Shown: positions 2,375-35,237, counted from the first letter of the stretch. The stretch: DNA of 35,237 nt from Candidatus Cloacimonadota bacterium (GCA_019429305.1 JAHYIR010000022.1:1-35237), one strand, 5' to 3'. Notes: generated by a model not told the origin, from the letters alone. Program-made: numbers and translations.

Positions 2375-2400
2375 GTTGTTAATTCCCCTTAAAATTATAA

Positions 2401-2433
2401 CCAGCACCTACTTAGAAAACAAGTAGGTGCTGG
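2401..2433 (-). terminator. 13-bp perfect hairpin between the two secreted-protein genes
   Basis: CCAGCACCTACTT (2401-2413) and AAGTAGGTGCTGG (2421-2433) form a perfect 13-bp stem with a 7-nt loop. Read on the minus strand, it follows the stop codon of the 960-residue gene and is followed by TTATAATTTT. It fits an intrinsic terminator for that gene, although the T-tract is interrupted. It also sits about 27 nt before the protease start, so it could lie in that gene's leader. Confidence 0.65.
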
Positions 2434-2448
2434 CATTGATTAACACTA

Positions 2449-5331
2449 TTATTTCAAAAGCATCATTCTTCTGTTGATGATCTGTCCATCACTCTCCAGA
2501 CTATAGAAATAAAGACCACTGGAGACATTAATGCCTCTGTTGTCAGTTCCATTCCAGACTGTCTGATGGGTACCAGCATTTAAATAGTCATCTACAAGAA
2601 CCTTTACTAACTGACCTTTAACATTATAAACACTCAATTTTACATGAGATGCATGCGGAAGGTTCATTTTGATGATAGTCTCAGGATTGAATGGATTTGG
2701 ATAGTTGGTTACAGTAAGTACGTCATTACTCGGGATCAATATCTCATCAACATCGGAATATCCTGCTAGTATTGCTCTGATCATGAAGTTTCCGTTCTGG
2801 AATTGTGACCACGGATTCGTAGTGATCTTTATATAGCTATTTCCAACACTATCCTCATCAACACCAATAGCTGAAGAATTAGCAGATTCTAGAATACCGA
2901 CAAAGAAATATCCATCTTCTAAATAAATAGGTGTTCCTTCCGGTATCGGGATAATATTCCAACCTAACTGTATCTGATTAGCTGGGAAAACAAACTGTGC
3001 AATAGCAAATTCACCGGGGAAGCCATCTTCATCTTCCCACACTTTTATAACCATAGGCGCAGTTCTAACAGTTTCAACATATATCTTTAAGTGAGTTAGT
3101 TGTACTTCATTGATTATATTCGGCATAAACTTAACTGCTAAATGGCTATTATTGCCTACATTATATCCTGATTCAGCTGTACCGTCATCATAAGCTAATT
3201 CCTCTGATGTTGCCGGAATGACAAATGCTGATGCTACGTTTGAGTACCCAGATTCACTTGTACCATAAAGAGCTGTAACAACATAGTAGTTAACTGCTCC
3301 CTCTTCAGGATTTTGATGTACAAAGTTTGTCTCAGTTGCATCTGTTGTTCCAATACTTGTGTATCCTGCTCCAGAGGAAAGAGAGTGATAAACATTGTAA
3401 CCGGTAATCTCTTCTCTTTGCAGATGCTTAACTACAGGTTCGCCAGTTCTTATGTCCAGGATCTCGACTAATGCCTGAATATTCCAATTAGCATCTATAG
3501 CACCACCAGAAGCAGTGTATAAGCTTTGCCATCCACCAGCTCCCATTCTAATCATATCACCTTTGCCAGGAACATGAGGACCTGAGTCGCAGCCAGCAGG
3601 AAACTCTCCTGCTACATGCTCTACATTATACCCCACCCAATAATCTTGTCCAAACTCAAGATAAACAGGTTCAGTAAGAGTTAATTCATTCCATTGATTG
3701 AAAGTGAGTCCTGTCAAAGCTTGATTATAAACTACTTCATTACCACTTACCCCCTTCCAAATATATAATTCGTATGAAGTTGTAGCCACAGAAGATCTGG
3801 GAAATATTTTAACTGTAGTTATATAACCACCAACATATGGCTCCATATCCTGTCGGGAGAAGAAAGCAGCAACATCAAAAGTTCCATCTGCAGTCAAACC
3901 TATACCATCAAAATTAATACCATCATCCCAATGAATCCAACCTTCTGAACCGCCAGCTCCGGGAGGTGACCAAGATAAGTTAACCTCTTGCCCTTCAGCT
4001 TCGGCTGTTAGATTAATTGGAACAGGAAGATACTCTGAATGATAGATAGTATAGTTATCGATCATCAAACCTTCACCAACTGGGGTGTGGTCTATCGATC
4101 TCAAGAATATTCTGAACTGAACCGTCTGTCCGGCATACTCAGAAATATAACCGTCTAATGAATAGGCAGATATCATAGAAGTCCACATATCTGGTACGTC
4201 AATATAGACATAGTTTGGATCTCCAGGAATATTATACGGATTACTCATTGCATACCATGAGAAGCCGGCATCAGGAGATATTTCCCAACCCCAATAGTCA
4301 CAATTTGGGAAAAGATTTGTATCTCCATCTACAGCCCCTCTGACCATAAAGTCGACCCTAATATCGCCACTTGAAGGTAGAGTTATTGGTTCTGAAACCA
4401 GATAATTCATCATTAAGCCATCGTAAGATCCTTGATCATTTTGACATACTGCTGCATGCGGTGGTGATGGTGGTAAAGGAGTTGGAGTTCCGATATGCCA
4501 TAAATCTCCACCGACAGGAACGACACTGGAAGCTACCATACCGTGTGTTTGATTGTCATTAAAATCATGATCAAATGCTCCTAACGCTATATTGTCAACC
4601 ATGATACCGAACCAGGAAGGATTTTCTGTTGTGTCAGCGGCAGGATCTGATGCAAAAGCAAATCTTATTCTTACATTTTGTCCAACATAGCTGCTCAGAT
4701 CAAAAGAGGCATCAACCCAACCATCAGAACTGCCACCCCAACCGGGTACACCAACACCTTCTCCATGAGAAACACCGAAACTGTACATTGATGTACAATT
4801 ATAAGCCGGAGTACCATTGATAACTGTCCATGTATTCCCACCATCAGTAGAAATACGAATATTTGCTCCATCCCAACCGTCATATTGTTGATATGTTTCG
4901 GGGGGTTCCATATTATAATTCAACTTAAAAGTTAACGTGCTATTACCTGCTGTAACAGCAATCTCAGGGGTATCTAAAGCTAGATACTGCAGATTTCTAT
5001 ATCCACCGATCTCAGGATCACCCATCCACCAAGAATAACCTACTCCACCATAAGCATTCCAATCTGTTAAATGCCACATTGCAGCGGGTAGTGTTCCATC
5101 AACGGAATACCAACCATTCCAACCACTTTCAAAATCTTGCATATAGAATACTGTCTCTTCCCTTAAAACATTTTGCTCATTTCTTAATGATCCTCGTAAA
5201 TTTGCTGTTTGCCCTGTGAGACTAGCAACCTCAAATGCGTTTACTCCCGAATGAGGTGTCATAATTGAGTCAGCATAGACAACACCAAGAACGAAAACCA
5301 TCAGAATAGCCAAAATCAAGTGTTTTTTCAT
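2449..5331 (-). CDS. Secreted multidomain protein with FlgD-like C-terminal sorting domain
   Basis: 960 residues. The signal peptide is MKKHLILAILMVFVLGVVYA. Two MAM/choice-of-anchor-J-like beta-sandwich regions follow (about 60-252 and 265-432), both with aromatic/Asp-rich FESGWNGW or DNYTIY type motifs. A fibronectin-III-like domain begins at 436 (INLTAEAEGQEVNLSWSPP), is interrupted by an inserted domain (about 463-625) and resumes at 641 (ITGYNVYHS to SGYSNVASAF). A second domain resembling the insert spans about 708-855. Residues 872-960 form the FlgD/T9SS-like C-terminal module with NYPNPFNPET and the closing SSGLYFYSLESDG. No peptidase or hydrolase motif was recognised, so the function is probably adhesion or cell-surface binding (inference). 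GGAGGA lies 8 nt before the ATG and a sigma70-like promoter is seen upstream. The protein is typical of Cloacimonadota-like secretomes. Confidence 0.9.
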   Translation of the reverse strand: MKKHLILAILMVFVLGVVYADSIMTPHSGVNAFEVASLTGQTANLRGSLRNEQNVLREETVFYMQDFESGWNGWYSVDGTLPAAMWHLTDWNAYGGVGYSWWMGDPEIGGYRNLQYLALDTPEIAVTAGNSTLTFKLNYNMEPPETYQQYDGWDGANIRISTDGGNTWTVINGTPAYNCTSMYSFGVSHGEGVGVPGWGGSSDGWVDASFDLSSYVGQNVRIRFAFASDPAADTTENPSWFGIMVDNIALGAFDHDFNDNQTHGMVASSVVPVGGDLWHIGTPTPLPPSPPHAAVCQNDQGSYDGLMMNYLVSEPITLPSSGDIRVDFMVRGAVDGDTNLFPNCDYWGWEISPDAGFSWYAMSNPYNIPGDPNYVYIDVPDMWTSMISAYSLDGYISEYAGQTVQFRIFLRSIDHTPVGEGLMIDNYTIYHSEYLPVPINLTAEAEGQEVNLSWSPPGAGGSEGWIHWDDGINFDGIGLTADGTFDVAAFFSRQDMEPYVGGYITTVKIFPRSSVATTSYELYIWKGVSGNEVVYNQALTGLTFNQWNELTLTEPVYLEFGQDYWVGYNVEHVAGEFPAGCDSGPHVPGKGDMIRMGAGGWQSLYTASGGAIDANWNIQALVEILDIRTGEPVVKHLQREEITGYNVYHSLSSGAGYTSIGTTDATETNFVHQNPEEGAVNYYVVTALYGTSESGYSNVASAFVIPATSEELAYDDGTAESGYNVGNNSHLAVKFMPNIINEVQLTHLKIYVETVRTAPMVIKVWEDEDGFPGEFAIAQFVFPANQIQLGWNIIPIPEGTPIYLEDGYFFVGILESANSSAIGVDEDSVGNSYIKITTNPWSQFQNGNFMIRAILAGYSDVDEILIPSNDVLTVTNYPNPFNPETIIKMNLPHASHVKLSVYNVKGQLVKVLVDDYLNAGTHQTVWNGTDNRGINVSSGLYFYSLESDGQIINRRMMLLK

Positions 5332-5549: not shown

Positions 5550-6809
5550 TTAAGTTTTAAGTTTCTTCTTTTCAGCAGCAGGGAAGAGTATGTTGTTAAG
5601 AATCAATCTGTACCCTGGAGAATTCTTATGTAATGATAGATTTGTTTCAGGGTCACCAATACGATGTGCATAATCTTCCGGGTCATGCCCTCCATAGAAA
5701 GTGAAAGTACCATTTCCTAAATTACCGTGGATATATTTTGCTTCATCTTCACCTGGTGATTCTCCTAAAATAATTACACTGCTCTTTATGTATTCCATAT
5801 GATAGGAAGTAGTCTGACCTAAAAAACCATTTACTGTATTAGTATGATTTTGGGTGAGCATAGTAGGTACAGGATCAAACTTGGCAGAGAAGTCAAAGAG
5901 GACAAAATAGTCCTGTTCAGGACCTCTCAATCTAGCATAATTACTGGCATCGACACTTGAGTGTTCATAAATATAAGGATTAGTTGTAAGCGTGAAATTC
6001 TCAAAGGCAAAAGTACGTGAAAAATCTAATTTGCTTTTGTAATTGGGATCAACTCCATCACCATCAAAGGAAGCTTCAACTATATCAATCCCATATGCAG
6101 CTAAGGCAATTTCAAGAGTTTCTGTTGCGGCACACATAGCAAACAGAAAACCACCATTCTTGGCATATTGTCTAATCTTATCAGCAACATCATGTTTCAA
6201 TTGCCAAACCTTTTGATATCCTAATCGTGCAGCCATGGCTTCATTGATTCTTACATCTTCCTGATACCATGCAGCAGTACGGTAACTACCATAAAACTTG
6301 CCGTATTGACCAGTAAAATCTTCATGGTGAAGATGTAACCAATCATAGTCGTCAAGCATACCTAGTAAGACCTCTTCGTCCCATAGAGTATCATAGTCAA
6401 TTTCGGCATAAGTCAATGCCAAAGTAACTGCATCGTCCCAAGGGAGAGAATTTGGCGGAGTATAGATAGCTATTTGGGGTTCTTTTTCTAAAACCACTAT
6501 GTCCATATTTGCTTCGTTGATAATAGAATAGATATTTGTAACTTCTGATGAAGAGACTCTTTCAAATCTAACTCCTCGTATATTACAAATGCCTTCAATT
6601 TCTCTCGAGTCAGGAATCAGAAAAGAACCACCTCGATAGTTTAATAACCATTGGACATTTATATCCTTTGTTAACGCATAAAAAGCTATTCCATATGCCT
6701 TTAGATGATCTGTTTGAGCTCCGTCCATTGGGATTAGTAACTCAGAAAATAAAGGATTAACTGCTAGAAAAACGATTACTATCAGTATGATTACCTTGAA
6801 TAAAATCAT
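5550..6809 (-). CDS. Exported conserved protein of the family labelled 'asparagine synthetase B' in Bacteroidetes
   Basis: 419 residues with an N-terminal signal/anchor segment (VIILIVIVFLAVNPLFS). Recognisable family stretches are LLIPMDGAQTDHLKAYGIAFY, VQWLLNYRGGSFLIPD, IAIYTPPNSLPWDDAVTLAL, WLHLHHEDFTGQYGKFY, GGFLFAMCAATETL and YGGHDPEDYAHRIGDP. I recall near-identical blocks in Bacteroidetes proteins annotated as asparagine synthetase B. This one has neither an N-terminal Cys glutaminase nor the SGGxDS ATP-pyrophosphatase motif of real asparagine synthetases, so that name looks unsupported. The GGFLFAMCAA segment resembles the nucleophile turn of class-I amidotransferase-like or ThuA-like folds (a suggestion only). 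It is the third gene of a lepB-hemW operon, 13 nt after hemW, with AGAGGT as ribosome binding site. Confidence 0.8.
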   Translation of the reverse strand: MILFKVIILIVIVFLAVNPLFSELLIPMDGAQTDHLKAYGIAFYALTKDINVQWLLNYRGGSFLIPDSREIEGICNIRGVRFERVSSSEVTNIYSIINEANMDIVVLEKEPQIAIYTPPNSLPWDDAVTLALTYAEIDYDTLWDEEVLLGMLDDYDWLHLHHEDFTGQYGKFYGSYRTAAWYQEDVRINEAMAARLGYQKVWQLKHDVADKIRQYAKNGGFLFAMCAATETLEIALAAYGIDIVEASFDGDGVDPNYKSKLDFSRTFAFENFTLTTNPYIYEHSSVDASNYARLRGPEQDYFVLFDFSAKFDPVPTMLTQNHTNTVNGFLGQTTSYHMEYIKSSVIILGESPGEDEAKYIHGNLGNGTFTFYGGHDPEDYAHRIGDPETNLSLHKNSPGYRLILNNILFPAAEKKKLKT

Positions 6810-18325: not shown

Positions 18326-18401
18326 ATTTACAAAATGACGAGACTTGATTTCAGTATATCAATAATGTAATTTTATTACCCATAAGATGGAGATCTGGCA
18401 T

Positions 18402-21368
18402 ATGAAGATGCAGGAACTGAACTACTATTACAATAAATTTAAATTTGGTGAAGATATCTTTCATAACTTGATGCATAAGCAAATCAAGGAAATTTTACTT
18501 GTCTCTACCTTTTATGATGCCTTTATTTTTGAGCAAGACGGTCGTCTCTCAGAACAGATTTTTGGTGAATACAGGCAACTCAATCTCAGTACAGCTCCCC
18601 GCGTAACAAGTGTTCCTTCAGGCAAAGATGCCTTGCATAAATTAGAGGAGAATGATTATGATTTAGTCATTCTTATGATGAGAATAGGAGAAATAGGGCC
18701 TTTTGAATTGAGTAAACTGATTAAGAAGCATAATCCAGAATTACCGATACTACTCTTATTGAATGTACAATCAGATCTGGCAATTATTGAAAGTCATAAA
18801 CAAGACATGGATTGCATTGATGACGTCTTCATTTGGAATGGTGACACAAAACTGTTCTTAGCGATGGTTAAGAATGTTGAGGATAAACAGAATGTAGCTT
18901 ATGATACTGAGATCGGCTTGGTGAGAGTTATACTGCTTGTTGAGGATTCTGTTCATTACTATTCAATCTTTTTACCCTTATTATATTCTGTCATAATGCG
19001 TCAGACACAACGTTTGATTCAAGAAGAGTTAACCGATATCAATAAAAGACTTCGTATGCGAGCCCGTCCGAAAGTCCTTCTTGTACACAATTATGAAGAT
19101 GCAATTGAGCTTTATGAAAAATACAAGGAATATATGGTGTGTGTTATCTCTGATATCAAATATTCCCATCAAGGAAAGATTGATGATGAAGCAGGCATAA
19201 AGTTAATTAAGACAATAACAGAAGATCAACAAGATATCCCGATCATCTTACAATCTTCTGAAACAGAAAATGCCCTAAAAGCAAAAGAGTTAGGGGTATA
19301 TTTTATTGATAAAAATTCAAAAAAGCTGCTCCACAGTCTCCGCGAATTTATTATCAAGAATCTCGGTTTTGGAGATCTAATCTTTAGAGACACTAGTAAT
19401 CGGGAGATCGCTCGAGTTACTACTTTGAATGAGATAGAACAAATACTTAAAACACTGCCAGACGAATCTTTACTCTATCATAGTAATAGTAATCACTTTT
19501 CCAACTGGCTTGTAGCTCATGGAGAGGTTGTTTTAGCAAAAAAGATACGACCAATGAAAGTTACCGATTTTTCCTCTGTAGATGATTTGAGATCTTTTCT
19601 ATCACAGATATTCGAGGAAGTTAGACGTGATAAGTGCCGAGGAAAGATAATTAATTTTGATATCGCCAGTCTAACTGAAATCGATCAGATTATCCGTTTA
19701 ACTGAAGGTTCTTTGGGTGGTAAAGGGCGAGGTTTGGCTTTTCTTAATGCATTGTTAGTTACCATGGAATTCGACAAGAAATTTCCCGAAGTCAGGATTT
19801 CACTACCGAGTACTGCTATCATTGGTACTAATGAATTTGATACTTTTCTGGAAAACCTGAATTTTGACGAATCAATAGCAAACTTATCAGACAGAGAAAT
19901 TGATGAATTTTTTCTCAAAGGCGAATTAAGTTCCGAACTAATTGCTCGTTTAGAAGTATATTTAGATAAGATATACTATCCGATAGCTGTTCGTTCTTCC
20001 GGACTTTTAGAAGACTCACAATCTCAACCTTTTGCTGGTGTGTATCGAACCTATATGCTCCCTAATAACAATCCAGACAAGAAAGTAAGACTTAGGCAAC
20101 TTACAGATGCCATCAAATTGGTATTTTCTTCGGTATATCTCAAAAATGCCCGTGGTTACATTGAGGGATTAAACTATAAAACCGAAGAAGAAAAGATGGC
20201 TGTTATCATACAGGAAATTGTAGGAAGTAATTTTAATAATACCCACTACTATCCGCATATCTCTGGAGCAGCTCAATCATACAACTTCTACCCTACTTCT
20301 TATATGGAAAATTCCGATGGGATAGCTGCAATTGCTTTGGGGTTAGGCAAGTCAATCGTCGAAGGTAAAGAGAACTATCGTTTTTGTCCAAAATACCCTA
20401 AACTGGAACCATTGCAACCGGATGATCGTATAAAAAGTTCTCAGAAAGATTTTTATGCTTTGAGTCTGCAAAAGAACAATTTCGATCTTAAAGAGGGTGA
20501 TGATGCAACTCTGGTCAAGTTGGATCTAAAAACAGCAGAAAAAGAGGGTGCCTTAACAAATCTTGCTACTGTATGGGACTATCAAAATAACCGTTTTGTA
20601 GATTCGTTAACAACTCCCGGCATCAGAGTCTTAACTTTCCCGGGTATACTTAAATATAATCATTTCCCGTTAGCGGAGATCTTACAACAGATTCTGGAAA
20701 TCGGAGAAATTGCACTCGGTACCCCGGTTGAAATCGAATTTGCCGTTAATCTGGACAATAACCCCTCCAAGGGGATCTTCCCAACTTTTTACATCTTGCA
20801 GATAAGGCCCTTATCAATTGCTATAGAGAGCTACAATATCGATACTTCAAAGATCGATAAATCAAAGTTATTCTTGTATACTGAAAAAGGGATGGGTAAT
20901 GGTATCATAGATAATATATATGATGTAGTTTTCCTTGATCATTCAAAATTCGATAAGACACAAACCGTCAAAATGCAGGAAGAAATTGAGCAGTTGAATA
21001 ATGAAATGAGGAAGGAAGATCGTGAGTATGTTCTCATAGGTCCAGGCAGATGGGGTTCAAGAGACCGGTTTTTAGGTATTCCTGTCCGATGGGCTCAGAT
21101 AAACAAAGCAAAAGTTATTGTTGAAACAGGTCTGGAAGATTTTTTGATAGAAGCTTCTCAAGGTACTCACTTCTTTCATAATATAGTTGCCATGCAAGTT
21201 GGATACTTCACAATACCTTTTGTCTCATCCACCGATTTCATCGATTGGGAATGGCTAAAAGATCAGAAAGAGATAACCAGAACAGATTTCTTCATACATG
21301 TAAGAACCAATCGCCCTTTAATCATCAAAATGGATGGCAAGAAAGGAATTGCCCTGATCGAAAAATAG
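18402..21368 (+). CDS. Receiver-like / PPDK-type ATP-binding fusion protein, copy 1
   Basis: 988 residues from the ATG at 18402 (GGAG 9 nt upstream; matches the N-terminus of copy 2). An ATG at 18387 is the alternative. Residues about 25-130 form a degenerate receiver-like domain (KEILLVSTFYDAF, DLVILMMRIG). Residues about 220-320 form a second receiver-like domain that keeps Asp251 (VISDIKY) and Lys304 (FIDKNS). From about 437 the PEP-synthase/PPDK nucleotide-binding domain runs: GGKGRGLAFLNAL, AVRSSGLLEDSQSQPFAG, ending near IEFAVN and FYILQIRPL (about 800). A C-terminal domain holds GPGRWGSRDRFLGIPV. The phosphohistidine (TSHAA-type) and PEP/pyruvate TIM-barrel domains of real PEP synthase are absent. 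I recall proteins of this architecture throughout Bacteroidetes; their role is not known to me. It probably uses ATP in a regulated phosphotransfer. Confidence 0.85.
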   Translation: MKMQELNYYYNKFKFGEDIFHNLMHKQIKEILLVSTFYDAFIFEQDGRLSEQIFGEYRQLNLSTAPRVTSVPSGKDALHKLEENDYDLVILMMRIGEIGPFELSKLIKKHNPELPILLLLNVQSDLAIIESHKQDMDCIDDVFIWNGDTKLFLAMVKNVEDKQNVAYDTEIGLVRVILLVEDSVHYYSIFLPLLYSVIMRQTQRLIQEELTDINKRLRMRARPKVLLVHNYEDAIELYEKYKEYMVCVISDIKYSHQGKIDDEAGIKLIKTITEDQQDIPIILQSSETENALKAKELGVYFIDKNSKKLLHSLREFIIKNLGFGDLIFRDTSNREIARVTTLNEIEQILKTLPDESLLYHSNSNHFSNWLVAHGEVVLAKKIRPMKVTDFSSVDDLRSFLSQIFEEVRRDKCRGKIINFDIASLTEIDQIIRLTEGSLGGKGRGLAFLNALLVTMEFDKKFPEVRISLPSTAIIGTNEFDTFLENLNFDESIANLSDREIDEFFLKGELSSELIARLEVYLDKIYYPIAVRSSGLLEDSQSQPFAGVYRTYMLPNNNPDKKVRLRQLTDAIKLVFSSVYLKNARGYIEGLNYKTEEEKMAVIIQEIVGSNFNNTHYYPHISGAAQSYNFYPTSYMENSDGIAAIALGLGKSIVEGKENYRFCPKYPKLEPLQPDDRIKSSQKDFYALSLQKNNFDLKEGDDATLVKLDLKTAEKEGALTNLATVWDYQNNRFVDSLTTPGIRVLTFPGILKYNHFPLAEILQQILEIGEIALGTPVEIEFAVNLDNNPSKGIFPTFYILQIRPLSIAIESYNIDTSKIDKSKLFLYTEKGMGNGIIDNIYDVVFLDHSKFDKTQTVKMQEEIEQLNNEMRKEDREYVLIGPGRWGSRDRFLGIPVRWAQINKAKVIVETGLEDFLIEASQGTHFFHNIVAMQVGYFTIPFVSSTDFIDWEWLKDQKEITRTDFFIHVRTNRPLIIKMDGKKGIALIEK

Positions 21369-21384
21369 TAGGTTTGCTTAGATT

Positions 21385-24300
21385 ATGAAAAAGTTTGAAA
21401 CCAAGGACCTTATCCATTACTATAACAAACTCAAATATGGTGAAGATACTTTTCATAATCTGATGCAGTATAGAATCAGAGACATCCTCTTAGTGTCTAC
21501 TTTCTATGATGCTTTCATTCTCGAACAGGACGGACACCTTTCCGATAAACTCTTCGGTGAATATCAACAACTTGATCTATCATTGTATCCCAAAATAGTA
21601 ACCACCCCTTCGGCGGAAGAAGCTATAAAATTAGTTCAAGAGCAAAAATTCGACCTTGTGATCACACTGGAAAATGTCGGAAGGATTTCATCAGTTGATC
21701 TAGCAAGAGAGATAAAAGCTCTCGATAAGGAATTGCCCATTCTTCTCTTGCTCAACCAAACAGTCAATCCTCTCTACTTTGAACAAAATTCAGAATACGG
21801 AGAACTATTTGATGGCATCTTTTGCTGGGAAGGAGATGCAAAAATTTTCCTTACTATGGTTAAGCTTACAGAAGATAAAAGAAACTTAAAACATGATACG
21901 GAAGTCGGTTTAACTCGAGTCATTCTTCTCTATGAAAAATCTATTAAGTACTATTCTAAATTTCTTCCCTTAATCTATTACGAACTTGTTCGACAGACAC
22001 AACGACTTATCAAAGAAGAGCTAAATGATATAAACAAACGGCTCAGAATGAGAGCACGGCCAAAAGTTATCCTTGTTCACTCTTTGGAAGAAGCACTAAA
22101 AATATATGATGAATTTAAGAATTACATAACCTGTGTTATCTCGGCAGAAAACTCTATTGTTGAGAAAAAACCGCATCTCTGTTATAAAATAAATGGTCTA
22201 AAACTCTTTAAGAAGATCAGGGAAAATGACCAAAGAACCTCTTTAATGCTTCATTCTTCAGATCAGAGCATCATAAGAGATGCTTTAGACGATAGTATTT
22301 ATTATCTTTATGAAGGTTCTTCAGCTTTCTGGCGCGATTTTAGAAACTTCCTACACACGAGCCAAGGGTTCGGAGACTTTGTCTTTCGTGATCAAACAGG
22401 CAAAATCATTGATACGGCAGCATCAATGCGTGAGTTTGAGCAGAAACTCAAGACTATTAGTGACGATTCTCTCAAGTTTCATTCAGATTTGAATCATTTC
22501 TCAGCTTGGTTGATAGCTCATGGTGAATTTCAGGTAGCCAGAGTGATCGCACCAAAGAAGATCGAAGATTTTCCCGATATTAAAAACCTGCGAGATTATT
22601 TAATAGCTGTTTTCCAGTATGTCAATAGACAGAAGAACCGTGGTAAGATTGTCAGTTTTAACGAAGACAGTTTGACAGATGAAAAGCAGATAGTTCGTCT
22701 TTCTGAGGGCTCATTGGGTGGTAAAGGAAGAGGTTTGGCATTTCTAAATGCGTTAATGGAAACAATGGAATTTGATGACTATTTTCCGGATATTCATATC
22801 AAATTACCATGTACAGCAATTATCTGCACAGATGAATTTGACTCTTTTATCGAACGGAATAAACTCAATCTCGATTTTACAAAATACAGCGACTATGAAA
22901 TTGACCGAATGTTTGTCGAAGCTCAGCTTTCTGATGAATTAATGTCCAGATTAAGGATATATCTAAATATCATTAGAAAACCAATAGCTGTTCGTTCTTC
23001 CGGTCTCTTGGAAGATTCACAATCCCAACCATTTGCCGGTGTGTATCGTACTTTTATGTTACCCAATAACCATCCTGATGATGAAATCCGCTTACTACGG
23101 CTTTGTAATGCCATTAAGCTCATTTTTGCATCGATATATCTCAAGAATACTCGCAACTATATAGAAGGGATTAATTTTAAGATAGAAGAAGAGAAAATGG
23201 CTGTCATTCTCCAGACTGTTGTCGGGAAACAATATAACTCTTACTATTATCCACATTTCTCGGGTGTAGCTCAATCATATAATTATTATCCGACTTCTTA
23301 CATGAAGCATAATGACGGTATTGTTTCCTTAGCTGTCGGTTTGGGTAAATCTGTAGTAGATAGAGAGAAGAGCTATTCTTTCTGTCCTCGTTACCCTCGT
23401 ATTGAGTTTATGCCACCTTTCCGGGTTGTCGAATATAGTCAGAGTCATTTTTACGCTATCAACTTGCAGTCAAACGAACTCGATCTGGTGAAGGGAGAAG
23501 AAGAATCTTTGGTTAAAAAGAAAATCGAAAATAATGAAAAAGAGGGACCTCTGATCAATGTTACTTCCATTTGGGATTATGAGAATAACGCCTTCCTTGA
23601 AGGAACCTTTGTCAAAGGTCCCCGAGTAATAACCTTCCGATCTATTACTCATTTTAATCTTATCCCCCTTTCTGATATTCTAAATTTGATCCTGCAAATT
23701 GGTGAGAAAGCTATGGGTATCCCGGTAGAAATCGAGTTCGCGGTTAATCTGGAAGAAGATCCATCAGACGAAGATGAAAAACAACTACCTGCATTCTATC
23801 TCCTGCAAATCAGACCTCTCAACGTCAGTAAAGAGAGATTAAGTATTGATCTGAATTCTATTGACAAAAAGGAATCACTGTTATTTTCATCCTGTGCATT
23901 AGGAAACGGAGTTATTGACGGGATCCATGACTTGATTTATTTAGTCCCCGATCTTTTTGATAACAGTAAAACGTTACAAATGAGAGATGAGATTGAGTTT
24001 CTAAATGAAACATTACGGAAAGAGAATCGCTATTATATCCTCATTGGACCCGGTAGGTGGGGTTCCAGTGATCGTTTTCTCGGTATTCCGGTAAAATGGG
24101 CTCAGATCAATCGAGCTAAGGTAATTGTGGAAGTCGGGTTAAAGAATTTTATTGTTGAAGCTTCACAGGGTAGCCATTTCTTTCAAAACGTGTTTGCTAT
24201 GAATGTAGGTTATTTTACTATCCCTTACAGTGAAAACAGTATCAACTGGATATGGCTGAATAAACAAAAAATACATCAAAAAACAGATCATTTTATCCAT

Positions 24301-24390
24301 CTGCGAAGTAATAATCCTTTTCTGACCAAAATAGACGGCAGAAAAGGAGCTGCTATAATTTTTAAACCTCAAGGAGGTGGTAAGAAATAA
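21385..24390 (+). CDS. Receiver-like / PPDK-type ATP-binding fusion protein, copy 2
   Basis: 1001 residues, starting 16 nt after copy 1 and co-linear with it over the whole length; by eye more than half the positions match in the ATP domain. Shared blocks are IHYYNKLKYGEDTFHNLM, DILLVSTFYDAFI, RLRMRARPK, SLGGKGRGLAFLNAL, PIAVRSSGLLEDSQSQPFAG, IEFAVN, LLQIRPL and GPGRWGSSDRFLGIPV. The second receiver-like domain has decayed: the Asp is Ala254 (VISAEN) and the FIDKNS lysine motif is replaced by YLYEGSS. The ATP-binding part looks intact. No phosphohistidine domain is present. This is a tandem duplication with divergence of the regulatory half, so the two products may form a heteromer or respond to different signals (inference). 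gdhA follows. Confidence 0.85.
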   Translation: MKKFETKDLIHYYNKLKYGEDTFHNLMQYRIRDILLVSTFYDAFILEQDGHLSDKLFGEYQQLDLSLYPKIVTTPSAEEAIKLVQEQKFDLVITLENVGRISSVDLAREIKALDKELPILLLLNQTVNPLYFEQNSEYGELFDGIFCWEGDAKIFLTMVKLTEDKRNLKHDTEVGLTRVILLYEKSIKYYSKFLPLIYYELVRQTQRLIKEELNDINKRLRMRARPKVILVHSLEEALKIYDEFKNYITCVISAENSIVEKKPHLCYKINGLKLFKKIRENDQRTSLMLHSSDQSIIRDALDDSIYYLYEGSSAFWRDFRNFLHTSQGFGDFVFRDQTGKIIDTAASMREFEQKLKTISDDSLKFHSDLNHFSAWLIAHGEFQVARVIAPKKIEDFPDIKNLRDYLIAVFQYVNRQKNRGKIVSFNEDSLTDEKQIVRLSEGSLGGKGRGLAFLNALMETMEFDDYFPDIHIKLPCTAIICTDEFDSFIERNKLNLDFTKYSDYEIDRMFVEAQLSDELMSRLRIYLNIIRKPIAVRSSGLLEDSQSQPFAGVYRTFMLPNNHPDDEIRLLRLCNAIKLIFASIYLKNTRNYIEGINFKIEEEKMAVILQTVVGKQYNSYYYPHFSGVAQSYNYYPTSYMKHNDGIVSLAVGLGKSVVDREKSYSFCPRYPRIEFMPPFRVVEYSQSHFYAINLQSNELDLVKGEEESLVKKKIENNEKEGPLINVTSIWDYENNAFLEGTFVKGPRVITFRSITHFNLIPLSDILNLILQIGEKAMGIPVEIEFAVNLEEDPSDEDEKQLPAFYLLQIRPLNVSKERLSIDLNSIDKKESLLFSSCALGNGVIDGIHDLIYLVPDLFDNSKTLQMRDEIEFLNETLRKENRYYILIGPGRWGSSDRFLGIPVKWAQINRAKVIVEVGLKNFIVEASQGSHFFQNVFAMNVGYFTIPYSENSINWIWLNKQKIHQKTDHFIHLRSNNPFLTKIDGRKGAAIIFKPQGGGKK

Positions 24391-24485: not shown

Positions 24486-25817
<1,332 letters not shown>

Positions 25818-25871: not shown

Positions 25872-27566
25872 ATGCTAAAAAGAATATGTGAAATTTCCAA
25901 CAGGATTTTACGCTGTGCCAGTGGTGATTTTAAGAAACTTGAGTTTATCAAAGGTATAGCTGCTATTTTTGATGAATTTTCTAAAGCTAATTCAGTTGTT
26001 ATCTATTTGGGTGATCAAGAAAAACTAAATGTGTTCGAATATTTACCAGTTGATGTTATCTCGGTAAAAAAACAAAGAAAAACCGATTTCCCTTTTCAAC
26101 ACTATAATCGCAGAGAGTTGTTGGATCTCAACTTCAAAAAAGAATTTTCCTCATGGATTGAAAGCTTTTTTAATCAGGAAATTATCAAAAACAGGAAGAA
26201 ATCTCAACCTATTGCTTTACAGAATATTGTAACCGAGGAAGGGATCTGTTTCTTTATCAATGATATAGATATTAATGGATCACAAAAAACTACCACTGAA
26301 AATTTTCAATCCTACTATATCATCCCCTTCTTGATAGATGCGAAAAACTTCGCTATCCTTGTTATGAGAGCTTTCAAGAGAAATGCCTTTGACCGCCCTA
26401 ACATTAACTTCTTCTCTAAATTAATTCAAGTATTATCTGAAGGTTTCTCTCATCAATACGCTCAAGATGCACTCAAAGAAAGAGTAAAAGAATTACTTTG
26501 TCTTTATCAGATCACACAAATTGCTAATAAACCTAACCTTACCATCAATCAAGTATTGCAACAAATTGCCGATATACTCCCCTCTGCTATGCAATATCCG
26601 GAAATTGCCTTTGCCCGTATCTACGTAGATGATGAATATTATAAGAGTAAAAACTTCCGGGAGAGCAAAATTAAATTATCAGCCCGGATTGCCTATAAAT
26701 ATGAACAGCGTGGATTTTTAGAAGTCTTTTATCGTGAAAGAGACATTCCGAAATACGGTCAGGTCTTTCTCCAAGAGGAAGAAAACTTGTTAGAGACTGT
26801 TTCCAAACAGATCGCTCTCATTATTGAACGAAAACAGGTTGAAGAACTAAATACGAAGTTACAGGAACAACTCCGTCATGCAGATAGATTAGCAACCATT
26901 GGACAACTCTCTGCCGGTATAGCTCATGAGATCAATGAACCCTTGGCTACTATCCTCGGTTTTGCTCAACTTATCGAAAAGGGTGAAAACATTCCTTCTG
27001 AAGCGATCGAAGATGCAAAAAAGATAATCAATGCGACTCTTCATAGTCGTGAAATAGTACGCAAACTAATGCTATTTTCCAGACAGATGCCACCAAAAAA
27101 GGGTAAAGTTAATCTCAATCAGGTTATTGATGAGGGTCTTTATTTTTTGGAGAGCCGATGCCAGAAATCGGGTATCGAGATTATTAGAAATTTGGAAAAA
27201 GATCTGCCGGAAATAGATGCCGACCCCAATCAGATCCATCAGGTATTGGTAAATCTAATCGTTAATTCTATTCATGCTATGCCCAAAGGCGGTAAACTAA
27301 TTCTGGCAACGAAAAACAATCCTGATAATTCCATCTCATTTTCCGTTGAAGATACCGGAACAGGAATCAATGAAGAGATCCAGCAAAAGATATTCATTCC
27401 CTTCTTTACGACTAAAGACATTGATCAGGGAACCGGCTTGGGGCTTTCTGTTGTTCACGGGATCATCTCTGCCCACAATGGTCAGATCAACGTTAATAGT
27501 AAGCTCGGAAAAGGTAGTATCTTTGAAATTAAGCTTCCTATATACGGCAACTTAAAGAACAAATAA
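25872..27566 (+). CDS. NtrB-like sensor histidine kinase with GAF-like N-terminus
   Basis: 564 residues, cytoplasmic (no membrane segment seen). Residues 1-200 and 200-330 look like two GAF-type sensor domains, the second ending in the linker LIIERKQVEELNTKLQEQLRHADRLA. The dimerisation/phosphotransfer helix carries His352 in SAGIAHEINEPLATILGF. The ATPase domain has N box VLVNLIVNSIHAMPKGG, G1 EDTGTGINEE, F box PFFTTKD and G2 GTGLGLSVVHGI. The output partner is almost surely the sigma54 activator 56 nt downstream. No good ribosome binding site precedes the ATG, and the gdhA terminator ends 13 nt upstream, so either read-through or a promoter hidden at the gdhA end is needed. Confidence 0.92.
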   Translation: MLKRICEISNRILRCASGDFKKLEFIKGIAAIFDEFSKANSVVIYLGDQEKLNVFEYLPVDVISVKKQRKTDFPFQHYNRRELLDLNFKKEFSSWIESFFNQEIIKNRKKSQPIALQNIVTEEGICFFINDIDINGSQKTTTENFQSYYIIPFLIDAKNFAILVMRAFKRNAFDRPNINFFSKLIQVLSEGFSHQYAQDALKERVKELLCLYQITQIANKPNLTINQVLQQIADILPSAMQYPEIAFARIYVDDEYYKSKNFRESKIKLSARIAYKYEQRGFLEVFYRERDIPKYGQVFLQEEENLLETVSKQIALIIERKQVEELNTKLQEQLRHADRLATIGQLSAGIAHEINEPLATILGFAQLIEKGENIPSEAIEDAKKIINATLHSREIVRKLMLFSRQMPPKKGKVNLNQVIDEGLYFLESRCQKSGIEIIRNLEKDLPEIDADPNQIHQVLVNLIVNSIHAMPKGGKLILATKNNPDNSISFSVEDTGTGINEEIQQKIFIPFFTTKDIDQGTGLGLSVVHGIISAHNGQINVNSKLGKGSIFEIKLPIYGNLKNK

Positions 27567-27622: not shown

Positions 27623-28963
27623 ATGACTGATAATAGGTTAACCATTCTCGTTGTTGATGATTCTATTGATTCATTGGAGATGATCAGTAGAAAATTAAAG
27701 AAACGTGATTTCTCTGTTTTTACTGCTACTAATGTTGCCGACGCTTTATCAGTCTTGGAAAAGACCGATATTGATCTGGTGATCACCGACTTCAAAATGC
27801 CTAAAGTTAGTGGTTTGGAACTTATCAGACACATCAATGAGAATTATAAGCAATTGAAAGTTGTAATGATTACAGGATACCCTACCATTGACGGTGCTGT
27901 AGAAGCTGTAAAGTCTGGTGCTGAGGAATATTTGATAAAACCTTTCACTGATGAAGAACTCTACAAAGCTATAGACGAAGTAGTCGAAAAGATCAGAACC
28001 GAAAGTTTAACTGAGGTAACTCAAATCCCCGACACTTACCAGAGTTATGGATTAATCGGTAACTCACAATCAATGAACACGGTATTTCATGCTATTGAAC
28101 GGTCTACTGCCATCTACGCTACTGTCCTAATAACTGGCGAGAGTGGCACCGGTAAAGAACTCGTGGCACGGGCAATCCATTATCATAGCCCCCGTTCCGC
28201 GGCCCCATTTGTTGCCGTCAATTGTGGTGCTATTCCTGAAAATCTCTTGGAAAGCGAACTATTTGGTTTTATGAAGGGTGCCTTCACTGGTGCTCACGAA
28301 ACAAGAGCTGGATTCTTTATCATTGCTGATGGCGGCACTATCTTCCTCGATGAGATCAGTGAAACATCACTCTCTATGCAAGTCAAGCTCCTCAGAGTTT
28401 TACAGGATAAACAGGTATCTATGATCGGAGCTAAGCAATCTCGTAAAGTTGATGTCCGCATCATTGCTGCTACTAATAAAAATCTGGCTAAACTGGTAGA
28501 TCAAGGTCACTTTCGGGAAGACCTGTTTTATCGACTCAATGTGATCACTATTGATTTACCACCTCTCCGTGAAAGAAATGACGATGTGATAATACTTACT
28601 AAATACTTTTTAGAGAAATATGCTAAAGAGATCGGGAAAAAAACACCTACATTGACTGAAAACGCCTTCCTTGCCTTAAAGAATTACTCATGGCCCGGAA
28701 ATGTTAGAGAATTGGAAAATTTTGCCCATCGTTTGGTTATTATGATCGATCATCCGACTATTGATGTCCCCGATCTACCCGAAGCGATGAGATATTGCAT
28801 TCAAGTTGATAAAGATTATACAAAATCTCTCAAAGATATGGAAGCGGAATATATCCGTAATGTCCTTGCCTCTGTTGAAGGCAATAAAAGTAAAGCAGCC
28901 CAAATACTCGGCATAGACCGAAAAACGCTCCGTTCAAAACTACCGGATAAAGACGAAGAATAA
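27623..28963 (+). CDS. NtrC-family sigma54-dependent response regulator
   Basis: 446 residues in three modules. The receiver (1-120) has Asp12/Asp13, phospho-Asp56 in LVITDFKMP, Thr84 and Lys106. The AAA+ domain has Walker A GESGTGKE (172-179), the sigma54-contacting GAFTGA loop (219-224) and a typical DEISETSLSMQ / AATNKN arrangement. The Fis-type helix-turn-helix (about 410-440) is VEGNKSKAAQILGIDRKTLRSKL. It remodels sigma54 RNA polymerase at -24/-12 promoters. The only convincing sigma54 promoter in the window lies about 490 nt downstream, before the Cys-rich gene, and is an obvious candidate target. Confidence 0.95.
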   Translation: MTDNRLTILVVDDSIDSLEMISRKLKKRDFSVFTATNVADALSVLEKTDIDLVITDFKMPKVSGLELIRHINENYKQLKVVMITGYPTIDGAVEAVKSGAEEYLIKPFTDEELYKAIDEVVEKIRTESLTEVTQIPDTYQSYGLIGNSQSMNTVFHAIERSTAIYATVLITGESGTGKELVARAIHYHSPRSAAPFVAVNCGAIPENLLESELFGFMKGAFTGAHETRAGFFIIADGGTIFLDEISETSLSMQVKLLRVLQDKQVSMIGAKQSRKVDVRIIAATNKNLAKLVDQGHFREDLFYRLNVITIDLPPLRERNDDVIILTKYFLEKYAKEIGKKTPTLTENAFLALKNYSWPGNVRELENFAHRLVIMIDHPTIDVPDLPEAMRYCIQVDKDYTKSLKDMEAEYIRNVLASVEGNKSKAAQILGIDRKTLRSKLPDKDEE

Positions 28964-29909: not shown

Positions 29910-29945
29910 GAAAGGAGCCGGACACTGTTCGGTTCCTTTCATTTT
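29910..29945. terminator. Shared terminator of convergent genes
   Basis: GAAAGGAGCCGGAC / GTTCGGTTCCTTTC forms a 14-bp stem (two G-U pairs) with an ACT loop, followed on the plus strand by ATTTT. It ends at the stop codon of the convergent gene, so it probably serves mainly the Cys-rich gene; the minus-side T-tract is weaker. Confidence 0.75.
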
Positions 29946-30493
29946 AAGAGTATATCAGTTAAGAATATTTTCCTGATTAATCTATAATGAGGATTATAAT
30001 TCTGCCTAAAAATATCACTATGTCTGGGAGAATAGACCACTGCACTGTCTAAACAACTTTTTAGTATCTTTTCTTGTTCTTCAAAAACCTTCCCAAGAAC
30101 ACCTATTTCTTTAATTAATTTCTCGATTTCATACCAATATTTATTATATCCATCTGTACTTGTCTGGTCTCGAGCACTCTGTAAGAATAGATCAAAATAA
30201 TCTATCTCACTGATCATTTTATCTAAGATCACCTGCAGATTTACCCGGCAGAAGTCATTACCGGAAAGAGAGAGATCTTGAACATATGGTTCTTGATTAC
30301 CTTGAAATTGCAATAATTCTTCATGTAAATAGCTATACGCTTCAGATTCGTTCGTAATTAGATGTCCGGGACCATACAATGCCTGATAGAAGAGCTTATA
30401 ATAATCAATCAATTCTGCAGCGGGATGCAGATTGTATTCAATTTTTATCAGATCAAGAGCTTCATCTCTATCAAAATGAATCACTTGTGCCAT
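29939..30493 (-). CDS. Conserved protein of unknown function
   Basis: 184 residues, no signal peptide or membrane segment. Distinctive stretches are DYYKLFYQALYGPGHLI, LSGNDFCRVNLQVI and YSPRHSDIFRQNYNPHYRLI. I recall proteins with the same GPGH and RVNL signature in Bacteroidetes and Firmicutes, all of unknown function. The conserved His, Asp and Arg residues could form an active site, but none is proven. It follows the amidohydrolase gene by 20 nt, so it is the third gene of the maf operon. The ribosome binding site is weak (GAGAA). Confidence 0.75.
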   Translation of the reverse strand: MAQVIHFDRDEALDLIKIEYNLHPAAELIDYYKLFYQALYGPGHLITNESEAYSYLHEELLQFQGNQEPYVQDLSLSGNDFCRVNLQVILDKMISEIDYFDLFLQSARDQTSTDGYNKYWYEIEKLIKEIGVLGKVFEEQEKILKSCLDSAVVYSPRHSDIFRQNYNPHYRLIRKIFLTDILLK

Positions 30494-32970: not shown

Positions 32971-33273
32971 ATGAAGTTTGTTAGAAAAAATCAACAGTGT
33001 GCCATGCGCATTCATCTACTGTAAAAAAATTTTCTTAGCATTGAAAAGAATGCCAGACCTCAAAAAAAAGAGGTTAATACGTCTGATGATGAATCGCAAT
33101 TAGCTTTTTTTTCTGGTTTCAAGTCTCAAAAAAACTACTATTTTACTGCCAGTTCAACGATATTTGAACCGTTATTCACTAGCTATATTCAAAATCACAT
33201 CAATTTAGTTTATAATCTAACAGATCATAATCAATTTACCTTACAACTTCATAAACAGAGGAGGTTATTATGA
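32971..33273 (+). pseudogene. Short ORF with in-frame stop, possible leader peptide or broken gene
   Basis: An ATG at 32971 with GGGGAG upstream starts MKFVRKNQQCAMRIHLL and meets TAA at 33022-33024. The same frame then stays open for 82 codons with no start codon and ends in TGA at 33271-33273, which overlaps the next ATG as ATGA. It could be a 17-residue leader peptide, a decayed 100-codon gene, or chance. The residue composition of the second part is not clearly protein-like. Confidence 0.3.
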
Positions 33274-35237
33274 AGAAGTATATATTTATCACAATCATTC
33301 TATTTAGTGGTTTTATGTTATACAGTCAGTTCTCAGCCCGTGAGGAAAGCAGAACTGGAACAATTCCCGATCTGATCTCGTTCCAAGGGAGATTAACTGA
33401 CAGTATGGGTGAACCGGTAAATGACATTCTATCGATCAGATTTAATGTCTATGATGTTGCTGTAGGTGGCTCTGCGATTTGGACAGAAGATCGAGAAGTC
33501 ACAATCTTTAACGGATTGTTTCAATTGAATCTGGGTGAATTAAACCCCCTTGATGAATCATATTTCGCAGCAGAAGCTCGCTGGTTAGGTGTAAAGATCA
33601 GTGCAGATGCTGAGATGACTCCTCGCATCAGAATTGTAAGTACAGCTTACTCTCTACACTCTGTAGAAGAAGACCCAACGTGGGAAGGAGAAACCAATAT
33701 TAGTGGAGATATTGGTAGAACCGGAAATGTAGGGATAGGGACACCGACACCTGCATATCCTTTGCATATTATTGGTAGTGGTGCTGAAGAGTATCAAAAA
33801 ATATCCAATCAAGAAGATCTACCGGTGAGCATGTCGTTCGAAACTCCTTATCTTAAATGGCTCATCGGTCAGAATAGACCACCTGATATGCCTGTTTTAT
33901 ATGATGGGTTTTTCTTCTATGATGATTATGTAGAACAAACTCGATTACTTATCAACTATGTTGGTAATGTAGGTATAGGAGCCATAAACCCTACTCAGAA
34001 ACTGGATATTGACGGTAATATCAGAATTAGGGGTGGTTTTCCCGGTCTTGGTAAGGTTCTAACTTCTGATGCAACTGGGGTTGCTACCTGGCAAGAACCC
34101 ACAACAATAGCAGAAACTGATCCTACTTGGAGTGGAGATACTGACATAACAGGAGCCATAGGTAGAACAGGTTATGTCGGTATTGGGACTACAACCCCTA
34201 CAGAATTATTACATGTAAGTGGTGGTGATGCTATGATAAATTCACATACAATAGGTAGAGGTGGTGGTGGTTTAGAAAGTAATGTGGTTATCGGTTATCA
34301 AGCACTTCACTCCAATACTACATCGGGTGATAGAAATGTCGCGATCGGTCATCAGGCATTATATTCGCAAACAGTTGGAGGATTAAACACAGCAATTGGC
34401 TATAAATCACTTCACTCCAATACTTCTGGTTATGAGAATACAGCAATTGGACATAGAAGTCTATATTCCAACACGGAAGGTGTTTTCAATACTGCTAATG
34501 GCGTGGACGTGCTTTACTCGAACTCTACAGGTAATTTTAACACAGCGTCCGGATACAGAGCTTTACAAGGAAATACTACGGGTAATAGAAATACGGCATA
34601 CGGTGTAGAGGCATTATCATTAAATTCAACAGCAAATGATAATACTGCCCTGGGTTATTATGCTTTAACATCCAATACAACAGGGTATGAAAATACTGCC
34701 GTCGGAGGCGAAGCATTATATTACAACAATATCGGGTATAGAAATACGGCAGTCGGATTTCAGGCACTATACAGTTCAACAGCTAATGACAATGATGCCT
34801 TCGGATGGAAAGCACTATTTACAAACACTACTGGTAGCAATAATACCGCTTTAGGTAATTATTCATTGCATAATAATACTGAAGGTGACTATAATCTGGC
34901 TGTTGGTGGTGGTGCCCTAAGAACAAATACTACCGGTAATTATAATGTCGGCATTGGACATAGCACAATCTTGGGTAATGAGACGGGATTGGGAAATACT
35001 GCTGTTGGTACTTGGTCTTTAAGTGGCTCTGCTGCAGGAGGTTGTAACGAGAACTCGGTTTTGGGTTATCAAGCTATGGCAATGAATTATACTGGAAGTT
35101 ATAACTCAGCAATGGGAAGCCAATCATTATACTGGAACAGTTCCGGTAATTATAATACTGCCAATGGATTTAAGGCACTATTTTTTAATACTAGTGGGGA
35201 ATTTAATACAGCAATTGGAACTAATGCTCTTTATACT
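33270..35237 (+). CDS. Secreted fibre-like repeat protein, partial
   Basis: The frame is open from the ATG at 33270 to the right window edge (656 codons seen). GAGGAGGT lies 4 nt before the ATG. After a signal peptide (MKKYIFITIILFSGFMLYSQFSA) comes an N-terminal domain common in FCB surface proteins (ISFQGRLTDSMGEPVND to TPRIRIVSTAYSLHS, about 35-130). Three units ending in VGIG then follow, two of them continuing with Thr-Pro-type turns and an LHI/LHV strand, typical of trimeric tail-fibre-like proteins. From residue 338 (nt 34281) to the edge there are 19 tandem repeats of about 17 residues (51 nt), consensus NTAxGxxALxSNTTGxx. It is probably a beta-helical surface fibre, possibly ending in an S74-type chaperone domain outside the window. 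Confidence 0.9.
   Translation, partial: MKKYIFITIILFSGFMLYSQFSAREESRTGTIPDLISFQGRLTDSMGEPVNDILSIRFNVYDVAVGGSAIWTEDREVTIFNGLFQLNLGELNPLDESYFAAEARWLGVKISADAEMTPRIRIVSTAYSLHSVEEDPTWEGETNISGDIGRTGNVGIGTPTPAYPLHIIGSGAEEYQKISNQEDLPVSMSFETPYLKWLIGQNRPPDMPVLYDGFFFYDDYVEQTRLLINYVGNVGIGAINPTQKLDIDGNIRIRGGFPGLGKVLTSDATGVATWQEPTTIAETDPTWSGDTDITGAIGRTGYVGIGTTTPTELLHVSGGDAMINSHTIGRGGGGLESNVVIGYQALHSNTTSGDRNVAIGHQALYSQTVGGLNTAIGYKSLHSNTSGYENTAIGHRSLYSNTEGVFNTANGVDVLYSNSTGNFNTASGYRALQGNTTGNRNTAYGVEALSLNSTANDNTALGYYALTSNTTGYENTAVGGEALYYNNIGYRNTAVGFQALYSSTANDNDAFGWKALFTNTTGSNNTALGNYSLHNNTEGDYNLAVGGGALRTNTTGNYNVGIGHSTILGNETGLGNTAVGTWSLSGSAAGGCNENSVLGYQAMAMNYTGSYNSAMGSQSLYWNSSGNYNTANGFKALFFNTSGEFNTAIGTNALYT
34281..35237 (+). 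repeat. 51-bp coding tandem repeat, 19 units and continuing
   Basis: Units have 17 codons, except the first (18), the tenth (16) and the fifteenth (19). NTAxG and ALxSN-type positions are conserved in the protein while the DNA varies strongly between units. That argues for old repeats kept by selection on structure rather than a young slippage array. Confidence 0.88.

Follow-up and report, generated by a model that had tools for sequence, protein, structure and literature searches.

The two genes and their domains

The DNA considered here is a 35,237-nt stretch from a Candidatus Cloacimonadota bacterium (GCA_019429305.1, JAHYIR010000022.1), which we call the window in its entirety. It carries two adjacent genes, A and B, encoding proteins of 993 and 1001 amino acids (aa) that are 53% identical in a full-length comparison, in agreement with the initial annotation, which had described tandem paralogues of about 1000 codons with one architecture. 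In the open reading frame (ORF) call both lie on the plus strand, 16 bp apart. Residue numbers are those of A in its longest ORF (18387 start) unless B is named; because residue 1 of the homologues aligns with residue 6 of A, the true start is probably 18402 (Met6). The features of the pair are:

18387..21368, plus strand: gene A, 993 aa; pseudo-receiver, receiver, linker, PPDK_N ATP-grasp and C-terminal GPGRWG/HFFHN domain
18495..18881, plus strand: A receiver-like domain 1 (about residues 37-165); pseudo-receiver with M98 in place of Asp and invariant W150 and G152
18924..19361, plus strand: A receiver domain 2 (about residues 180-325); E186, D187, D256, S290 and K309 intact, long helix past the first strand
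19152..19154, plus strand: A Asp256 codon; predicted phospho-acceptor of receiver 2
19710..20846, plus strand: A PPDK_N ATP-grasp (residues 442-820) with invariant K446, R536, E782, E784 and Q805
20856..21365, plus strand: A C-terminal domain (residues 824-993), unrecognised fold
21168..21170, plus strand: A His928 codon; invariant, candidate phospho-acceptor or catalytic residue
21385..24390, plus strand: gene B, encoding a 1001-aa paralogue of A with a matching domain series; receiver 2 degenerate, ATP-grasp and C-terminal residues intact
22711..23847, plus strand: B PPDK_N ATP-grasp (residues 443-821), from Pfam
23866..24387, plus strand: B C-terminal GPGRWG/HFFQN domain

The PPDK_N domain is recognised by Pfam in both A (E=1.1e-35) and B (E=9e-35). 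Response_reg matches A in two stretches (8.5e-13) and B at 2.2e-6, just under the curated cut-off. An AlphaFold2 model of A built on a 50-sequence alignment (mean predicted local distance difference test score, pLDDT, 84.7; predicted template modelling score, pTM, 0.70) displays the expected domain series, including two alternating beta/alpha receiver-like segments at about residues 35-165 and 180-325. Pfam found neither HisKA or HATPase_c nor a DNA-binding domain in A or B.

As judged from sequence, the ATP half is shared with phosphoenolpyruvate (PEP) synthase, pyruvate phosphate dikinase (PPDK) and rifampin phosphotransferase (RPH), and by the features tested the protein appears to belong to none of the three. 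The likeness to PEP synthase and PPDK lies in a PPDK_N ATP-grasp with matching catalytic motifs, whereas A and B differ in their two receiver-like domains and their C-terminal domain. Pfam matched no PEP-utilisers or PEP-binding domain in full-length A or B or in their isolated C-terminal domains. The PEP/pyruvate-binding TIM barrel is judged absent because Pfam has no match to it in A or B and because PPDK_N ends at 820 and the C-terminal domain begins at 824, leaving no room for it. The lack of phosphohistidine and PEP-binding domains, noted at the outset, was upheld by Pfam, Foldseek and profile comparison (the last an insensitive test); in the reading we favour, A and B are not PEP-synthesising enzymes. 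The further claim that their chemistry must differ from that of PEP synthase is secure only in part: given full conservation of the ATP half-site and an invariant histidine in the C-terminal domain, the first half-reaction, from ATP to a protein histidine, could still be shared. The best solved match of the ATP domain, in both sequence and fold, is RPH of Listeria (PDB 5hv1/5hv6), from which A and B differ in their linkage to glutamate dehydrogenase genes (gdh) and in that no rifampin-binding or RPH-type His domain was found; the whole-protein NCBIfam model RIF_Ptrans_rph scored 17.1 bits against a cut-off of 999, over the ATP-domain stretch only.

An invariant core and a selectively lost receiver site

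Scans of genome contigs and of relatives, one each, yielded 131 full-length family members, A and B included. Their source records are assigned to Cloacimonadota, TA06, WOR-3, Neomarinimicrobiota, Bacteroidota and Riflebacteria, among others, and further members occur in plasmid-collection records of Parabacteroides, Prevotella and Phocaeicola. The anticipated spread through the Fibrobacteres-Chlorobi-Bacteroidetes group is thus confirmed and extends to some other bacteria. The nearest named match to a window protein is 70% identical to it. As first supposed, no assigned role was found: we encountered no characterised member of the family, and no study in the literature on the architecture, on DUF5752 or on the glutamate dehydrogenase (GDH) linkage. 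The Parabacteroides distasonis protein WP_041525632.1, annotated by domain only ('PEP/pyruvate-binding domain-containing protein'), matches A with 39% identity across 98% of the query and, unlike the A/B pair, is a single copy at its locus. BT_1971, considered as a possible member in Bacteroides thetaiotaomicron, was rejected, being a catalase.

The core of the protein is strictly conserved. ATP-grasp residues K446, R536, E782, E784 and Q805 are invariant in all 131 relatives, as are R888, D893 and H928 of the C-terminal domain. K446, R536, E782/E784 and Q805 align with the PPDK motifs GGKG, VRSG, D-x-E-F and LQ, whose residues we take to be the catalytic residues of PPDK.

Conservation of the receivers is uneven. 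Receiver 1 is a conserved pseudo-receiver, with M98 at the Asp position and the invariant W150 near the Lys position. In receiver 2 the set E186/D187/D256/S290/K309 is intact in 92 of 93 first or single copies, in 19 of the 23 members of one second-copy clade, and in only 3/15 of the second-copy clade to which B belongs; in B itself the Asp is missing at the D256 position and Lys309 is replaced by Glu. The features of the receiver superfamily (acidic pair, Asp, Ser/Thr and Lys) are therefore present in receiver 2 of A, where Foldseek also matches receivers, and lacking in receiver 1 and in receiver 2 of B. The initial description of two receiver-like domains thus needs a correction: within A and B, a full phosphorylation site exists only in receiver 2 of A. 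The catalytic core is intact in all copies, so that copy B has selectively lost its receiver function. In the family tree the two kinds of second copy form separate clades, so tandem pairs seem to have formed on more than one occasion, some of the supports being modest or low.

Compared with response regulators and hybrid sensors, A shares the acidic pair, Asp, Ser and Lys in its receiver 2, and relatives share GAF-like or PAS extensions; A and B differ in that the effector is an ATP-grasp core rather than a DNA-binding, GGDEF or HisKA/HATPase domain, and in the degeneracy of receiver 1.

The C-terminal domain

The C-terminal domain spans about 170 aa and bears the motif GPGRWG...SxGxHFFxN, of which GPGRWGS (residues 885-891) is conserved. 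Its invariant residues are N871, G887, R888, G890, D893, E913, S924, G926 and H928, with W889 nearly so, and H928 is also kept in two divergent subfamilies that have no receivers. His928 is, on this conservation, the leading candidate for a phosphoryl acceptor or catalytic residue.

Modelled alone, the domain gives a pLDDT of 91.3 and a pTM of 0.89. Foldseek found no PDB match at E<=0.001 (best 0.17, template modelling score about 0.3) and no match among viral models, and Pfam gave no credible match for the isolated domain of the window copies or of divergent relatives. A diverged PEP-utilisers identity was considered because the strand/helix order and a His at a helix start look alike by eye; it was unsupported by Pfam, by Foldseek against PDB and viral models, and by hhalign. 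The hhalign comparison with PEP-utilisers was not significant and is a weak test, because the family's ATP domain, a PPDK homologue by Pfam, scored only 1.3% against PPDK, with the positive control, enzyme I of the phosphotransferase system (PTS EI) against PPDK, at 97.3%. One hhalign match of 92.7% was discarded, since a family member (from locus L182) had contaminated the reference set, and a sequence match to VAMP7 (E=0.04) is within chance.

Linkage to glutamate dehydrogenase

Downstream of the pair, the window contains:

24486..25817, plus strand: gdhA, NADP-specific glutamate dehydrogenase; 95 bp downstream of B, a conserved family neighbour
25872..27566, plus strand: sensor histidine kinase; its GAF-like domain (residues 204-336) is the one found in the extended N-termini of Bacteroidales relatives of A (E=1.8e-24)
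27623..28963, plus strand: NtrC-type sigma-54 response regulator; link to the family not general

The gdhA linkage proposed at first proved much stronger than one window could show. Among 50 loci with at least 1.6 kb of flank on each side (window included), gdh lies no more than two genes away in 27, and KorA/KorB, a 2-oxoacid:ferredoxin oxidoreductase, is near the family gene in 8 further loci. A survey of 59 genomes of the window's phylum found 41 with the family; gdh lies within 2.5 kb of a family gene in 30/41 of these and in 32/53 family clusters, by a scripted count from listed coordinates transcribed by hand. The number of gdh copies per genome is 1-3 in 40 of the 41. As a control, 30 PEP-utiliser genes (among them PPDK and PTS EI) were taken from part of the phylum's genomes, and none is adjacent to gdh.

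The arrangement is not a fixed one. The gdh gene may follow the family gene on the same strand, lie upstream of it in divergent orientation, or occupy both positions, and the adjacent GDH comes from two different families, NADP-specific and archaeal-type. The linkage also occurs in Bacteroidales; in P. distasonis, for example, the family member is divergent from gdhA. Loci of one lineage are not independent, yet the link recurs across arrangements, GDH types and subfamilies, and we regard it as strong. In several Bacteroidales loci NuoE/NuoF-like genes lie 3' of gdh (in L055, L056 and L063, of a second gdh), which suggests a cluster for glutamate oxidation and NADH disposal.

The proposed linkage to an NtrB/NtrC-like pair fared less well. 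Locus L043, the closest named relative of the window locus, repeats its gene order of A, B, gdh, histidine kinase and NtrC-type regulator. The pair thus lies next to the family in these two loci, but it is absent from most others, and clusters with an NtrC-type regulator number just 4 among 81 loci. The initial interpretation was thus partly supported, being right on architecture and gdh and less so on NtrB/NtrC; a role for A and B in energy or nitrogen sensing is plausible.

Sensor and effector fusions

In Bacteroidales, first copies are extended at the N terminus by a PAS domain or by a GAF-like domain, the latter repeated in some. Another arrangement begins with an archaeal-type gdh. Next comes a short form of about 580 aa, consisting of the ATP-grasp and C-terminal domains only, and then a protein of 1050 aa in which this core is joined to a GAF-like domain and to a nucleotidyltransferase domain (NTP_transf_2); in L176 the series continues with a gene for a Metallophos phosphoesterase. 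Similar nucleotidyltransferase and phosphoesterase genes lie between the family pair in L096 and L103, the phosphoesterase there being assigned by sequence, without a Pfam scan.

Two side observations concern these parts. The GAF-like domain, with the motif LPxxxQYPExxxARI...GxxEVFY, is common to the window's histidine kinase, family members (the N-termini in L044, L050 and L106) and the nucleotidyltransferase protein, has no Pfam match above cut-off, and looks like an undescribed sensor domain. The operon in which archaeal-type gdh precedes the genes for the short ATP-grasp protein and the 1050-aa ATP-grasp-nucleotidyltransferase occurs in L176 (382-7486, with the metallophosphoesterase), L177, L178 and L182, and is possibly a reversible nucleotidylation system.

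Other observations

At 2-5331 on the minus strand of the window, a subtilase-type protein with FG-GAP repeats adjoins a protein of 960 aa whose C terminus bears a type IX secretion signal. The ORFs at 5550-6809 (minus), 29939-30493 (minus) and 33270-35237 (plus) encode 184 to 656 aa for which Pfam gave no match at E<=0.001; the third extends beyond the end of the window. Elsewhere, in locus L004 (G000:C1:9072-10361), PPDK_N and PEP-utilisers are found together in an open frame of 1363 codons whose long N-terminal part is of unrecognised nature; related genomes have similar frames.

Discussion

Because relatives of A and B in several phyla repeatedly adjoin gdh, the two proteins probably regulate the main exchange between glutamate and ammonia. 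The fuller reading, that they are ATP-driven cytosolic signalling proteins that regulate GDH and the glutamate/2-oxoglutarate node, seems to us evenly balanced between right and wrong. A and B would be subunits of a cytosolic module controlling GDH and, in some lineages, also 2-oxoacid:ferredoxin oxidoreductase. The PPDK_N ATP-grasp would bind ATP and, together with the C-terminal domain, drive a cycle of phosphoryl transfer or conformational change, His928 being the likeliest phosphoryl acceptor and receiver 2 (Asp256 of A) a possible input or in-cis relay point. Since B keeps the catalytic core and has lost the receiver site, the two probably work as an asymmetric pair, perhaps as a complex. 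The output may be reversible modification of a target, most likely GDH; the GAF-like, PAS and nucleotidyltransferase fusions and the neighbouring phosphoesterase are consistent with this. In its most specific form, which we think unlikely, the proposal is a further kind of ATP-driven phosphoryl signalling protein: a PEP-synthase-type ATP-grasp would act as a histidine kinase on the invariant C-terminal His, with onward relay to a receiver Asp of its own chain or of its partner, so that the adenylate state would control GDH reversibly in several phyla.

Several points weigh against regulation of GDH by such a module. Gene adjacency alone demonstrates neither a physical nor a regulatory effect on GDH, and 11 of the 41 family-positive genomes have no gdh adjacency, some of these being at contig edges. 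The structure predictions cover single chains only. Because the C-terminal domain has no detectable similarity to phosphohistidine domains, the case for His928 as acceptor comes solely from its invariance and position.

A second scenario is that A and B are metabolic enzymes, in which the ATP-grasp acts on a small molecule of glutamate/2-oxoglutarate metabolism, by phosphorylation or ligation, and the receivers only regulate this. RPH, the nearest solved relative of the ATP domain, and the prodigiosin ligases put the same domain to non-pyruvate substrates, the PigC/RedH models are among the top NCBIfam matches, and the invariant polar residues R888, D893, E913, H928 and N871 could make an active site. 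However, no substrate domain was recognised, the fusions and partners are signalling parts (receivers, GAF-like or PAS domains, nucleotidyltransferase), and non-identical tandem copies that lose the receiver site only are a better fit to regulation; we therefore regard an enzymatic role as somewhat unlikely. It is less probable still that A and B belong to a transcriptional, two-component output system, in which the neighbouring histidine kinase phosphorylates the receivers and the ATP-grasp does no more than sense the adenylate ratio and, by way of the NtrC-type regulator, tune the expression of gdh. Both regulatory genes are indeed downstream in the window and L043, and the kinase and family members have the GAF-like domain in common, but the kinase/NtrC pair is missing from most loci while the gdh linkage persists, and neither A nor B has a DNA-binding domain. 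Finally, it is very doubtful that the C-terminal domain is a strongly diverged PEP-utilisers phosphohistidine swivel, making A and B PEP-synthase-type enzymes minus the PEP barrel: the apparent order of strands and helices, a His at a helix start after a strand, and the L026 motif SQGSHFFHNISSQGIP, which resembles GGxTSHAAxxARxxGIP, speak for it, and the lack of Pfam and Foldseek matches speaks against it, as does, weakly, the profile comparison, which left the ATP domains unlinked too.

The module proposed for GDH would have a functional analogue in the OdhI-PknG system of Corynebacterium, which controls 2-oxoglutarate dehydrogenase (PMC9769921). Both would exert phosphorylation-dependent control of glutamate/2-oxoglutarate metabolism, and we claim no homology. 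PknG belongs to a different type of protein kinase, and OdhI, an inhibitor protein, is unrelated.

We found no description of a dedicated GDH regulator of the A/B kind in anaerobes or gut Bacteroidales. In gut Bacteroidales and many anaerobes, GDH is a main point of ammonia/glutamate exchange. A widespread family that joins receivers to a dikinase ATP domain and travels with gdh is a concrete candidate for such a regulator, and it is present in culturable species. The family also reveals a conserved domain that is unmatched in Pfam and PDB, and the relay, if it exists, would represent a new route for ATP into receiver signalling.

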